A stretch of DNA of 64,000 nucleotides from Proteus columbae (GTDB taxonomy: Bacteria > Pseudomonadota > Gammaproteobacteria > Enterobacterales > Enterobacteriaceae). The position numbers were made by a program, and so were the translations under genes. This document shows positions 10,487 through 64,000 of this stretch, piece by piece. The DNA is taken from contig NZ_CP043925.1 of the NCBI RefSeq assembly GCF_009914335.1, positions 1,736,001 through 1,800,000 on the forward strand, read 5' to 3'. Under the pieces are notes generated by a model. The model was given only the letters and a program-made list of their open reading frames with translations, did no database searches and was not told the origin of the DNA. Position 1 is the first letter of the stretch. The number at the start of each line of letters is the position of its first letter.

Positions 10487-10507
10487 AATACACTAAGAGT
10501 AATAAGC

Positions 10508-10534
10508 GTTATCATTATGATAATCATTATCGTT
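10508..10534 (-). promoter_or_regulatory. Fur box / promoter region of the heme operon
   Basis: CATTATGATAATCATTATC (10513-10531) matches the Fur consensus at 17 of 19. Further GATAAT-like hexamers on both sides suggest overlapping dimers. It sits directly upstream of hemP. Confidence 0.88.
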
Positions 10535-20679: not shown

Positions 20680-20753
20680 ATGTTTATAGATAATGTCAAA
20701 AAGAATAAAAATAGAGAGAGAAAATAGAATTATTTCTTTATTTAGATTTTATT

Positions 20754-20772
20754 TTTAATGATAATCATTATC
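20754..20772 (+). promoter_or_regulatory. Fur box upstream of the orphan lipoprotein
   Basis: TTTAATGATAATCATTATC matches the Fur consensus at 17 of 19, 29 bp before the ATG of the next gene. Confidence 0.85.
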
Positions 20773-20800
20773 TTCATAATAAAAGATAAGACGATCAATA

Positions 20801-36110: not shown

Positions 36111-36310
36111 AAAATTATGTTTCGTATTATAGAGGTTAATTTCTATGAAGAAAATCGAAAAAAGGTAAATTTAAGTGATGTGATCAAAATACAGCGCTGA
36201 CTGCTTGTTTTTTAAACAATTTGTTGCGCAATAAAATATTGCAAGCTAGATTAATTATTTTGTAGGGTAGGTAAGATGAACAAAAATAAGAAAATATAGA
36301 GAAAGAGAAA

Positions 36311-36387
36311 TGGTGCGTCCAAGTGGACTCGAACCACCGACCCCCACCATGTCAAGGTGGTGCTCTAACCAACTGAGCTATGGACGC
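36311..36387 (-). tRNA. valW: tRNA-Val (GAC), copy 1
   Basis: A 77-nt cloverleaf with encoded CCA. The acceptor stem is GCGTCCA / TGGACGC, the D-arm AGCTCAGTTGGTTAGAGC, the anticodon loop CTTGACATG (anticodon GAC, valine), and the T-arm GTTCGAGTC. E. coli carries the valV-valW pair in the same neighbourhood. Confidence 0.97.
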
Positions 36388-44322: not shown

Positions 44323-44901
44323 TTAAGCAAGGTTAGCTTCAACAAATGACCAGTTAACCAGTGCCCAGAACTCTTCTAAATATTTAACGCGCGCATTACG
44401 GTAGTCGATGTAGTAAGCATGTTCCCATACGTCTACTGTTAACAGTGGTTTGTCTGCGCCTGAAACTGGAGTAGCAGCATTAGACGTGTTAACAATCGCA
44501 ACTGAACCGTCTGCTTTTTTAACTAACCAAGTCCAACCTGAACCGAAGTTTTTAGCTGCCGCATCATTAAATTGCTTTTTGAACTCTTCAAAAGAGCCGA
44601 ATGCTTTGTTGATAGCATCAGCAACTTTACCTGTTGGTGCGCCGCCTGCATTTGGTGCTAAACAGTTCCAGTAGAAAGTGTGGTTCCATACTTGAGCTGC
44701 ATTATTAAAGATACCACCATCAGTAGATTTGATGATTTCTTCTAAGGATTTGCTTTCTAAATCAGTACCTTTAACCAGGTTATTTAAATTGGTTACGTAA
44801 GTTTGGTGGTGTTTGCCGTAGTGATATTCTAAAGTTTCTTTAGAGATGTGTGGCTCAAGAGCATCTAACGCATAAGGTAATTTTGGTAATTCGAAAGACA
44901 T
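44323..44901 (-). CDS. sodB: Iron superoxide dismutase
   Basis: Removes superoxide in the cytoplasm; 192 residues (E. coli 193). Metal ligands are His 27 (EYHYGKHH), His 74 (WNHTFYW), and the Asp and His in VDVWEHAYYIDYRN. From ATG 44901, AGGAG is seven bases upstream. The open frame extends 31 codons further up with no family support. The bases over the start codon are complementary to the RyhB-like RNA at 62.9 kb, as in E. coli, where RyhB shuts off sodB under iron limitation. Confidence 0.97.
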   Translation of the reverse strand: MSFELPKLPYALDALEPHISKETLEYHYGKHHQTYVTNLNNLVKGTDLESKSLEEIIKSTDGGIFNNAAQVWNHTFYWNCLAPNAGGAPTGKVADAINKAFGSFEEFKKQFNDAAAKNFGSGWTWLVKKADGSVAIVNTSNAATPVSGADKPLLTVDVWEHAYYIDYRNARVKYLEEFWALVNWSFVEANLA

Positions 44902-44904
44902 TGC
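44897..44904 (-). promoter_or_regulatory. RyhB pairing site on the sodB mRNA
   Basis: mRNA sequence GCAATGTC, spanning the start codon, is the exact complement of GACATTGC in the RyhB-like RNA (62932-62939). It is the same place as the validated E. coli interaction. Confidence 0.7.
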
Positions 44905-61069: not shown

Positions 61070-62755
61070 TTATTTTATAGCCTCTTTCTTGTGATTTTGT
61101 TCGTCTACTTCTGCCTCTCGATAAACACCAGCAAAAGACGCATTACCAAAAGTACTCAATACCAATCCTTTAATATCATAACGATATGCTTGCATACGTA
61201 AAGAGTTTGCTAAAGGCAACACTGGTAACTCTTGAGCAAGAATATCTTGAGCTTCATGATAATAATCCATTCTTGAAGCAAGTTGCTGACTATAAAGCGC
61301 TTTTTTCAAAATATCATCAAAGTTAGGTAAACACCAATGACTTAAGTTAGTTTGTGAGCCAATGGCTGCACAGCTAAAGAGAGGACGGAAAAAACTATCA
61401 GGATCGTTACTGTCAGTTGACCAACCAGATAAGGTCATATCATGAGTGCGATCCATCATACTCGTTTCTTGATATCGTCCTTCAATAGGACGAATGCTCA
61501 TTTGAATACCCACTTGCGCTAAGTCTGCTTGAATAAGTTCCGCCATTTTTAATGGGCTTGGATTATAAGATTGTGAGGCGCTAGGTACCCAAAGATTTAA
61601 TTTCAGCCCATCAAGGCCTAGCTCTTTAAGAATTTGTTTCGATTTCTCAGGATTATATTCTGTAATTTTTGCTCGGTTATCATAAGCCCAAGATGCGCGA
61701 GGAAGCACTGATGCTGCCGTTTCTGCCGTACCATAATAAATAGATTCCATTAAACGTTCGTTGTTAATGGCATAAGCAATAGCTTGACGAACTTTAAGAT
61801 CATTTAGGGGTGGTTTGCTGGTGTTAAAGGCTAAATAAGCGATATTCATACCAGAACGCAACGTTAATCTTAGTCGTGGATCGTCACGTAAGACTTTTAA
61901 TTGGCTTGCGGCAGGATAGGCTAAAACATCACATTCACCAGTGAGTAATTTAGATATACGGCCTGTACCACCTGCACCCATATCAATAACAATCTGTTGC
62001 ATTTTGGGTTGGCCTTTCCAGTAATCTTTATTTCTAAATAAACGAACAAATTGCCCTGGTTGATATTCATCTAAAAAGAAAGGGCCTGTTCCTACTGGTT
62101 TCCAATCAAGCTGTGTTTGATCGCCTGATTTTTCTAAATTTTGGGCGTATTCGGCAGAAAGAATAGGGGCGTAATGTGTTGCTAAATGCCATAGAAAAGA
62201 GGCGTCAGGCTCTTTTAAGCTAAATTCTACCGTGTATTGACCTAGTCTTTTTATCGATTGGATATTATTGGCAAAACTTAAGCTGTCAAAATAGGGGTAT
62301 TTCCCGCCATTAATTTGATTGAAAGGATTTTGTGGATTGATCATCCTTTCAAAACTAAAAATAACATCATCAGCGGTAAGTTTACGTGTTGGTGTGAACC
62401 AAGATGTTTGTTGAAAGGAGACATTTTTACGTAAATAAAAGCGGTATGTCGCGCCGTTATCTAATGTTTCCCATCGAGCTGCAATTTCAGGGATCAGGCG
62501 ATAAGTGTAAGGGTCGACATCTAAAAGACGGTCATAGAGCTGTGCAGCTAGAGGATCAATAATTAATCCACTACTTGATAGTTGTGGATTAAAGGTATTT
62601 ACACTGCCATCAACACAGTAAACAAAGCCATTTTGATTAATTGGAGTTGGCTCAAGCGTTATAGATGGTGCTTGTGTTTTTGGTGCTACATCCGCAATAC
62701 AAGTTACGCTTGTAAAGGTGAGTAGCAAAGTACCAATAAATAAAATAGGGCGCAT
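61070..62755 (-). CDS. sapA: Sap periplasmic binding protein SapA
   Basis: Family 5 (DppA-like) solute-binding protein of 561 residues (E. coli 547). The signal peptide MRPILFIGTLLLTFTSVTCIA is followed by a mature protein starting near DVAP. FVYCVDGSVNTFNPQLSSSG is the family opening, and LSGWSTDSNDPDSFFRPLFSC lies in the peptide-binding lobe. In Salmonella and Haemophilus it binds cationic peptides, and in Haemophilus also heme. First gene of sapABCDF, preceded by the ryhB promoter region facing away. Confidence 0.94.
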   Translation of the reverse strand: MRPILFIGTLLLTFTSVTCIADVAPKTQAPSITLEPTPINQNGFVYCVDGSVNTFNPQLSSSGLIIDPLAAQLYDRLLDVDPYTYRLIPEIAARWETLDNGATYRFYLRKNVSFQQTSWFTPTRKLTADDVIFSFERMINPQNPFNQINGGKYPYFDSLSFANNIQSIKRLGQYTVEFSLKEPDASFLWHLATHYAPILSAEYAQNLEKSGDQTQLDWKPVGTGPFFLDEYQPGQFVRLFRNKDYWKGQPKMQQIVIDMGAGGTGRISKLLTGECDVLAYPAASQLKVLRDDPRLRLTLRSGMNIAYLAFNTSKPPLNDLKVRQAIAYAINNERLMESIYYGTAETAASVLPRASWAYDNRAKITEYNPEKSKQILKELGLDGLKLNLWVPSASQSYNPSPLKMAELIQADLAQVGIQMSIRPIEGRYQETSMMDRTHDMTLSGWSTDSNDPDSFFRPLFSCAAIGSQTNLSHWCLPNFDDILKKALYSQQLASRMDYYHEAQDILAQELPVLPLANSLRMQAYRYDIKGLVLSTFGNASFAGVYREAEVDEQNHKKEAIK

Positions 62756-62858
62756 AAATAATGTCTTTTAGAGAAACGATTTTGCTATTGTAACTTAAAA
62801 AACTTTCTATCCCCAAATAGTCAAAAAAACAAAGTGAGAAAAATTCTCAATAAAATGC

Positions 62859-62888
62859 TTTACAAATGCTAATGATAAAGATTATCAT
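62859..62888 (+). promoter_or_regulatory. ryhB promoter with Fur box
   Basis: A -35 TTTACA (62859-62864) and -10 TATCAT (62883-62888) are 18 bp apart. GCTAATGATAAAGATTATC (62868-62886) matches the Fur consensus at 16 of 19 and covers spacer and -10, so Fur would block the polymerase. Confidence 0.8.
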
Positions 62889-62894
62889 CCGTAT

Positions 62895-62994
62895 TGTCCT
62901 TCGGCGGTAAGAGGTTTTCCGCAGAGGGCACGACATTGCTCACATTGCTTCCAGTATTTTTTACTAGCCAGCTCGGGTGCTGGCTTTTTTTTTT
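62895..62994 (+). ncRNA. ryhB: RyhB-like iron-responsive small RNA
   Basis: About 100 nt. The core GACATTGCTCACATTGCTTC followed by CAGTATT, then AGCCAGC/GCTGGCT and T10, equals the core and terminator of E. coli RyhB. The 5' part differs. RyhB, with Hfq, blocks and destabilises mRNAs for iron-using proteins when iron is low. It lies between sapA and pspF, not between yhhX and yhhY as in E. coli. The start position is estimated from the promoter. The terminator stem is at 62966-62985. Confidence 0.92.
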
Positions 62995-63051: not shown

Positions 63052-64000
63052 TTAAGTTATTATTTGATGTTTTTTAATTAGCCCTCTAAATTGATCGTAA
63101 CTTAGTGATAATTTTTCAGCCGCCTCTTTCTGGTTATATAAGCTCTCTTTTAATGCACTATTTACTAATTTTTTTTCTACATCATTTTGCCACTGGCGTA
63201 AATCCAACGGTAATATGGGTAGTGAAAAATTTTCTTTTGGTGATTTTTTTAATGTGGGGGTTTTTGGCGACTGAAGGCCAGCAAAGGGATCAATAATAAT
63301 ATTAGTGAGTACGTTGTCGCAGGTTCCATGACGATAAACTGAGCGTTCAACAACATTTTTTAGCTCACGAATATTACCTGGCCATGAATAATCTAAAAGC
63401 ACTTGGCGCGCACTATCACTAAAACCAGGAAAAAAAGGTAAACCTAACTCTTGGCACATTGAGATAGCGAAGTTTTCAGCAAGCAACATAATATCTGCAC
63501 GTCGCTCTCTTAATGGCGGGAGTCTAATAACATCAAACGCCAATCTATCGAGTAAATCGGCACGAAATTTACCTTCTTCCGCCATTGCGGGTAAATCTGC
63601 ATTTGTCGCGCAAATAAGCCTAACATCCACATGCAGAGATTGACTTCCCCCAACGCGCTCTAAATGACCATACTCAATGACGCGCAGAAGCTTTTCTTGC
63701 ACAAGCATGGGAGCAGTCGCCAGTTCATCAAGAAAAAGAGAACCTCCATCCGCACGTTCAAAACGCCCTTGATGGCGATTTCTAGCACCAGTAAAAGCGC
63801 CTGCTTCATGACCAAAAAGCTCAGAATCAAGTAAATTGTCATTGAGCGCAGAACAGTTGATTGAAATAAAAGGTCCTTGCCACCAAGGAGCAAGATAGTG
63901 TAATCGATGAGCGATCAACTCTTTGCCTGTACCTCGTTCACCAATAATTAATACAGGCTTTTTTAATTGAGCAAGTGCTGAGGTTTGTTCTAATACATCA
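63052..64000 (-). CDS. pspF: Phage-shock-protein operon activator PspF (5' end missing)
   Basis: Sigma-54 enhancer-binding protein without a receiver domain. The frame stays open to the window edge, 316 codons, beginning DVLEQTSALAQLKKPVLIIG. Walker A is GERGTGKE, the sigma-54 contact loop GHEAGAFTGA, Walker B GGSLFLDELATA, and the C-terminal Fis-type helix-turn-helix EAAEKLSLSYDQFRGLIKKH. Only about 15 N-terminal residues should be missing. It activates pspA, probably divergent just beyond the window, as in E. coli where sapA also neighbours pspF. Confidence 0.95.
   Translation of the reverse strand, partial: DVLEQTSALAQLKKPVLIIGERGTGKELIAHRLHYLAPWWQGPFISINCSALNDNLLDSELFGHEAGAFTGARNRHQGRFERADGGSLFLDELATAPMLVQEKLLRVIEYGHLERVGGSQSLHVDVRLICATNADLPAMAEEGKFRADLLDRLAFDVIRLPPLRERRADIMLLAENFAISMCQELGLPFFPGFSDSARQVLLDYSWPGNIRELKNVVERSVYRHGTCDNVLTNIIIDPFAGLQSPKTPTLKKSPKENFSLPILPLDLRQWQNDVEKKLVNSALKESLYNQKEAAEKLSLSYDQFRGLIKKHQIIT

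Follow-up and report, generated by a model that had tools for sequence, protein, structure and literature searches.

The window analysed here, a stretch of 64,000 nt from Proteus columbae, carries between sapA and pspF a real, ordinary and old paralogue of the small RNA RyhB, at a site already published for Erwinia amylovora (PMC4070566). We read this locus, with a probability of about 0.93, as a RyhB of a second, old orthologous class (class A) that is repressed by Fur, induced by iron starvation and works beside three sibling copies in the same genome. The history of the gene is hereby corrected: the sapA-pspF gap is an old, shared second site of RyhB. The more interesting part lies in the multi-copy set to which the gene belongs and above all in a derivative carried by prophages.

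A scan of the window against all of Rfam (cmscan) identified RyhB (RF00057) at positions 62924-62992 on the forward strand, with 82.3 bits against a cut-off of 55 and an E-value of 5.7e-14 for the window. The match covers the full model (1-67) with no non-standard pairs marked, and in the 801-base stretch scanned around it the other Rfam families reached at most half of their cut-offs. An earlier note on this DNA had proposed a RyhB homologue in the sapA-pspF gap and had named the covariance model as a check; both the assignment and the check were borne out. The core, the terminator with ten T, the promoter hexamers and the overlapping Fur box listed there are likewise all in place. The −35 hexamer TTTACA (62859-62864, +) and the −10 hexamer TATCAT (62883-62888, +) are separated by an 18-nt spacer and agree with the consensus at 10 of 12 positions. 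By itself such a promoter match is at chance level (3 sites in the region, 2.9 expected); it gains its weight from its place and from the fact that TTTACA-N18-TATCAT is present in 20/20 Proteus copies of the sapA-pspF RyhB locus. The Fur-box match TGATAAAGATTATCA overlaps the −10 hexamer (62873-62887, +) and shows one mismatch to TGATAATNATTATCA, which we took as the Fur 15-mer consensus for scoring. One mismatch was also found in all 20 Proteus class-A copies, compared to four to seven when each upstream sequence was shuffled once. Further upstream lies the palindrome TGAGAAAAATTCTCA (62835-62849), which is peculiar to the sapA-pspF class.

The predicted class-A RNA extends from 62895 to 62994 on the forward strand, its start being deduced from the −10 hexamer and its end from the T run. 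Its 5′ third (about 62895-62929) is unlike the other RyhB classes compared, in line with the distinct 5′ third noticed earlier, and in the fold of the whole RNA it is predicted to form a hairpin of class-specific sequence (62895-62930, +). The fold of the whole RNA yielded a z-score of −1.99, with 6 of 200 shuffles as good. Among 16 distinct Proteus sequences 90.9% of the cells in helix 1 are paired, and no compensatory changes occur, as no pair is changed on both sides; covariation was therefore rejected as proof of the class-A hairpin, its score being not above that of shuffles. The hairpin is followed by the seed core ACGACATTGCTCACATTGCTTC (62930-62951, +), invariant in the 20 aligned Proteus class-A copies, and by a Rho-independent terminator with a stem-loop of seven pairs, five of them G-C (62966-62985, +), and a U tract encoded by nine T (62986-62994, +); counting the T that closes the stem, the run is ten long (62985-62994). 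Two terminator-like sites were found in the region where 0.7 were expected. Across the 20 Proteus genomes the terminator is as invariant as the core, the linker is nearly so and the 5′ hairpin is variable. Upstream of the gene lies the divergent sapA (61070-62755, −; Pfam SBP_bac_5, PF00496) and downstream the convergent pspF (63052-63999, −, cut at the window end and continuing beyond it; Pfam Sigma54_activat, PF00158), both names being our assignment from Pfam domains plus recall. The window copy thus has the features by which we recognise class A: an upstream sapA and a downstream pspF, each encoded on the opposite strand, together with the palindrome TGAGAAnnnTTCTCA.

The genome of P. columbae (4.11 Mb, one contig) contains four RyhB matches above the cut-off. 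Besides the class-A copy these are a yhh-locus copy, class B (G000:C1:3990796-3990863, 74.1 bits), and two tandem class-C copies at 1444715 and 1448110, 3.4 kb apart (59.1 and 59.0 bits). All four have one core, different 5′ thirds and promoters, and Fur-box matches. The class-B copy is flanked by an HI0933/YhiN-like gene and a pirin gene, with its core 193 nt before the latter. We take the yhh site (yhhX-yhhY locus) to be the site of E. coli ryhB, yhhX presumably lying there between ryhB and yhhW; a review passage agrees on the yhh site in general terms only. The 28 class-B copies taken from further genera of the family have a pirin gene downstream on the same strand, either 0.17-0.45 kb or 1.17-1.48 kb from the core. 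Within Proteus, the sapA-pspF copy and the pirin-side copy are both above the cut-off in 20/20 genomes. The tandem class C also occurs in 20/20 genomes, with 38 copies, doubled in 18 and single in G202 and G207; three of the 38 score just below the cut-off (54.8, 51.8 and 51.8 bits). Weaker matches in the P. columbae genome (27.3 and 19.6 bits) and in Proteus (29.2 and 26.8 bits) lie below the scores of the prophage-borne class D described below and were set aside; the stretch fetched around the 26.8-bit match (L112) does contain, at a different place, a degraded class-D copy. The window locus belongs to a Proteus other than P. mirabilis, being 80.8% identical to that of P. mirabilis ATCC 29906 over 7.6 kb; among ten named Proteus loci compared, it is closest to those of P. 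alimentorum (95.0% over 5.5 kb) and P. faecis (93.8% over 7.9 kb). The presence of RyhB in the genus was known before: PMC3521468 reports ryhB from P. mirabilis and describes it as single-copy in Morganella morganii KT.

The two class-C copies (L038:6716-10179; G000:C1:1444715-1448178) are direct repeats around a segment with a SUKH-domain gene. This segment measures about 1-5 kb and is variable across Proteus, two of the 20 genomes having a single class-C copy, and a phage-type integrase gene is located about 3.2 kb from the tandem region.

How the window gene came to its site can be read in more than one way. The earlier note had correctly placed it away from yhhY and had concluded that the gene had moved or had been gained independently in this lineage; a location not near the pirin/yhh genes and a 5′ third unlike that of the yhh copy would fit such a history. 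However, a RyhB is retained beside the pirin (yhhW-like) gene of the same genome, and likewise in 20/20 Proteus genomes, so the gene has not moved. The claim of an independent gain does not hold either, as seen from the same site in other genera. A scan of named genomes for the class-A upstream signature returned 61 contigs from Serratia, Rahnella, Pectobacterium, Brenneria, Xenorhabdus, Winslowiella, Erwinia, Pantoea, Izhakiella, Rouxiella and Proteus, as well as from one unclassified member of the Enterobacterales. The RyhB core is present in 60 of the 61, and the fetched stretch contains both sapA and pspF in 39 of these, one of the two in 19 and neither in 2; the 61st contig (L174) ends right past the signature, with sapA present and no core in view. 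Without exception, the 97 neighbour matches lie on the opposite strand, with sapA before the RyhB gene and pspF after it as expected, at distances to the best matching piece of 0.2-3.8 kb (median 0.3) for sapA and 0.1-4.8 kb (median 0.1) for pspF. The palindrome TGAGAAnnnTTCTCA, which in the window stands 9 nt before the −35 hexamer, occurs in 19/20 Proteus and 11/11 other class-A copies (30/31 in all; one of the 11, L072, was classed by motif and has neither sapA nor pspF in its stretch) and in 0/149 copies of classes B, C and D. In a tree of 68 hand-chosen copies, which included the promoter sequence that also helps define the classes, class A forms one group (84/63) and has one origin in 85% of the bootstrap trees; classes C and D are separated from A and B at 97/93, class B does not form a single group, support for class C is 67/44, and the tree program warned that the long branch of class D may be misplaced. 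The site is, moreover, in print: an RNA-seq table of Hfq-dependent sRNAs in PMC4070566 places ryhB of E. amylovora in the pspF-sapA gap and gives it an RF00057 match and low counts in the absence of Hfq. Shared synteny and palindrome across eleven named genera, Proteus included, the single tree group and the published Erwinia site thus make a move or a separate gain in Proteus extremely improbable. Judged by synteny and sequence, sapA-pspF is an old second RyhB site common to many related genera; synteny, together with a tree of modest support, argues for retention of an existing site over a new entry. It may have been present in the ancestor of the family or may have spread by later transfers. 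Of 197 genomes sampled across the order, 70 gave a RyhB match, and neighbours of the sapA, pspF or pirin type were absent within 1.5 kb at 20 loci from other families (L018-L037).

The window copy could also be a decaying, redundant duplicate that is kept by chance only. Four copies with the same core in one genome would agree with this, as would a Yersinia pestis ryhB1-ryhB2 double mutant, for which PMC4585118 reports no discernible defect in survival or dissemination after intranasal inoculation. Decay is however difficult to reconcile with a core and a terminator that do not vary in 20 Proteus copies and a Fur box with one mismatch in every one of them, while the sequence downstream varies, and we consider it very unlikely. 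A different proposal, compatible with a Fur-repressed class-A RyhB, gives the region an additional, local role: Fur would also control sapA from a divergent operator here, and RyhB would be one of the two outputs. In support, the gap from the start of sapA to the −35 hexamer of RyhB contains the class-specific palindrome, which is kept across genera and is possibly a second Fur operator or the operator of a divergent sapA promoter. On the other hand, the palindrome departs from the Fur 15-mer at three positions, no promoter could be located for sapA, and weak Fur-like matches are common in the window (29 at up to three mismatches, 10.8 expected), which leaves the sapA operator possible but rather doubtful. 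Closer Fur-box matches with 0-1 mismatch are found elsewhere in the window at 1834-1848, 10500-10532 and 20753-20773, two of them in overlapping arrays.

For the class-A RyhB of the window, Fur repression, use of Hfq and regulation of targets would be expected by analogy with RyhB biology. With iron present, Fur-Fe would occupy the box over the −10 hexamer, and perhaps the upstream palindrome too, and block transcription. Iron shortage would lift the block and give a transcript of about 100 nt, whose core GACAUUGCUCACAUUGCUUC would pair, together with Hfq, with mRNAs of iron-using proteins such as sodB over their start regions and thereby lower their translation and stability. Class A would act beside the yhh-locus copy and the two RyhB-2-like copies, all with the same core but with different 5′ thirds and promoters. 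A probable target, sodB (Fe/Mn superoxide dismutase family), is located in the same window (44323-44901, −), and its start codon is spanned by GCAATGTC (44897-44904), an 8-nt exact complement of RyhB GACATTGC. When the cores were paired with sodB using RNAduplex, the energy for the class-A core did not set sodB apart from background, with 203/500 shuffles as good (rank 27 of 52 genes), compared to 11/500 (rank 7) for the yhh copy, 6/500 (rank 4) and 67/500 (rank 12) for the class-C copies, 44/500 (rank 9) for the prophage copy and 265/500 for a reversed control. The P. columbae genome contains 19 complements to a 17-nt piece of the core at up to three mismatches, compared to 8 for the control: four exact matches are the RyhB genes and two the prophage copies. 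The remaining, non-RyhB matches all have three mismatches, and we claim no new targets from this search.

The window copy shares with E. coli RyhB the core, the terminator, the Fur-box promoter and a score with the family model, but the yhh-locus orthologue of the E. coli gene is another gene of the P. columbae genome, the class-B copy, whereas the window copy resides at sapA-pspF and has a 5′ hairpin of its own as well as an additional palindrome upstream. E. amylovora RyhB occupies this sapA-pspF site too, oriented in the same way relative to its two neighbours; PMC4070566 names two RyhB-family sRNAs for this species, RyhB and its sibling Hrs15, compared to four above the cut-off in P. columbae. 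In Yersinia, RyhB1 and RyhB2 are also siblings at distant loci, one of them in the E. coli context (excerpts of PMC4585118 and PMC4211561). A GATTATCTTT...GAATAGTTGAG signature is common to Proteus class C and to copies from other genera. One of the latter, L115, is preceded by a yeaQ-like gene (PF04226) that starts 216 nt before the match, and yeaQ is connected with Salmonella RyhB-2 in a passage of PMC4228915. Class C is likened to Salmonella RyhB-2/RfrB (PMC4211561 and PMC4228915) by way of such other-genus copies. Unlike Salmonella RyhB-2, Proteus class C is doubled in 18/20 genomes, and its neighbour is a lipid A acyltransferase gene, joined in most genomes by a 5′-nucleotidase gene.

We then counted copies, with stricter filters, in a family sample of 149 genomes: 92 had a RyhB match, two Proteus genomes with four matches each and the other 90 with one to three (eight of them with three). 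The class-A signature was found in 32 genomes and the class-C signature in 14, while the two signatures were combined in no genomes but those of Proteus (G000 and G206). This restriction is that of the sample as scanned, the signature scans having known misses and the third copies of the eight three-copy genomes standing outside the classification. Of 30 class-A signature loci examined, 29 have the core just downstream and G301 (L250) has no RyhB core beside the signature; the class-A scan missed G248 and G097, which are class A by synteny (L136, L119), and the class-C scan, an exact pattern, missed the class-C copy of G080 (L116). Proteus has the largest RyhB set in the sample, consisting of the yhh class, the sapA-pspF class and the doubled RyhB-2-like class. 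In the literature searched, including the accessible parts of PMC4211561, PMC4585118, PMC4070566 and PMC3521468, more than two RyhB siblings per enterobacterium were not described. With at least four RyhB genes that have one core and differ in 5′ thirds and promoters, Proteus offers a natural test of why sibling sRNAs are kept.

RyhB-like stretches were also seen on plasmids, with 81-84% identity over about 65 nt: NZ_CP098171.1, NZ_CP076548.1 and NZ_CP045066.1, which comprise two Klebsiella plasmids and one 11-kb Enterobacter plasmid.

Two further matches in the P. columbae genome (30.1 bits, cut-off 55) lie inside prophages, at G000:C1:1389879-1389957 and 1636327-1636405 (L040:5880-5958 and L041:6328-6406), both on the reverse strand and between a DnaB-type helicase/Hsp20 segment and lysis genes. 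With this score the gene, class D, falls outside RF00057, and we term it RyhB-like, not RyhB. The second half of its core ACGACATGACTTACATTGCTTC is as in RyhB and the first half is changed (GACATTGCTC to GACATGACTT): the GACATTGC half is lost and ACATTGCTTC is kept. The model matched class D 14 times in 12/20 Proteus genomes, and 10 of the 12 loci fetched from other genomes have a prophage Hsp20 and/or endolysin gene nearby (L100 and L104 do not). G211 contains one extra, degraded copy (L112) that was unlisted by the model scan; it has no Fur box in its upstream sequence and was left out of the count of 49 copies. An exact class-D 21-mer retrieved 35 IMG/VR contigs, 31 of which carry an Hsp20 and/or endolysin gene in the piece examined; core identity is selected by this pattern, and by their record names several of the contigs share one source genome and are not independent. 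Only the comparison of the linker and terminator (99.7% ungapped identity in 35 distinct windows) with the hairpin (85.6%) is independent of the search pattern. A Fur-box match with 0-2 mismatches is found upstream of 49/49 counted copies, compared to 4-7 mismatches after one shuffle each. Among 392 genomes of the family class D was confined to Proteus (2 of the 5 sampled), and the INPHARED phage collection gave no match.

Class D has the GGTTGA promoter start in common with both class-C copies and the terminator loop CTCCTAGCG with one of the two, and the 68-copy tree joins D to C, subject to the long-branch warning. The single-sequence fold of class D is strong (z −5.09), and its hairpin shows one compensatory pair, with 84/500 shuffles as good. 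The features shared with class C suggest that class D may be a class-C gene that was taken up by a prophage and re-aimed. The literature searched yielded no prophage derivative of RyhB, PMC13192938 and PMC4104026 describing other prophage sRNAs in the parts available. We give even odds that Proteus, with the largest RyhB set in the sample, also has a prophage derivative that keeps host Fur control but carries a changed seed, so that the iron sensor of the host would fire a re-targeted RyhB. If true, a phage would be wired into the iron control of its host through an RNA.

Nine other IMG/VR contigs (L325-L333) have the canonical RyhB core and class-C-like promoters, within about 350 nt of the stretch end in eight of the nine, as if prophages insert beside a RyhB-2-like gene. 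In one prophage stretch a cspA thermoregulator match lies next to the RyhB-like gene (L005:1836-2264, 223 bits), with a tRNA match further on (L005:2710-2784, 41.7 bits, cut-off 29). In the window itself, a match to Rfam HPnc0260 at 36209-36349 (84.1 bits, cut-off 59) overlaps an oppositely oriented tRNA gene and is probably carried by the tRNA part.
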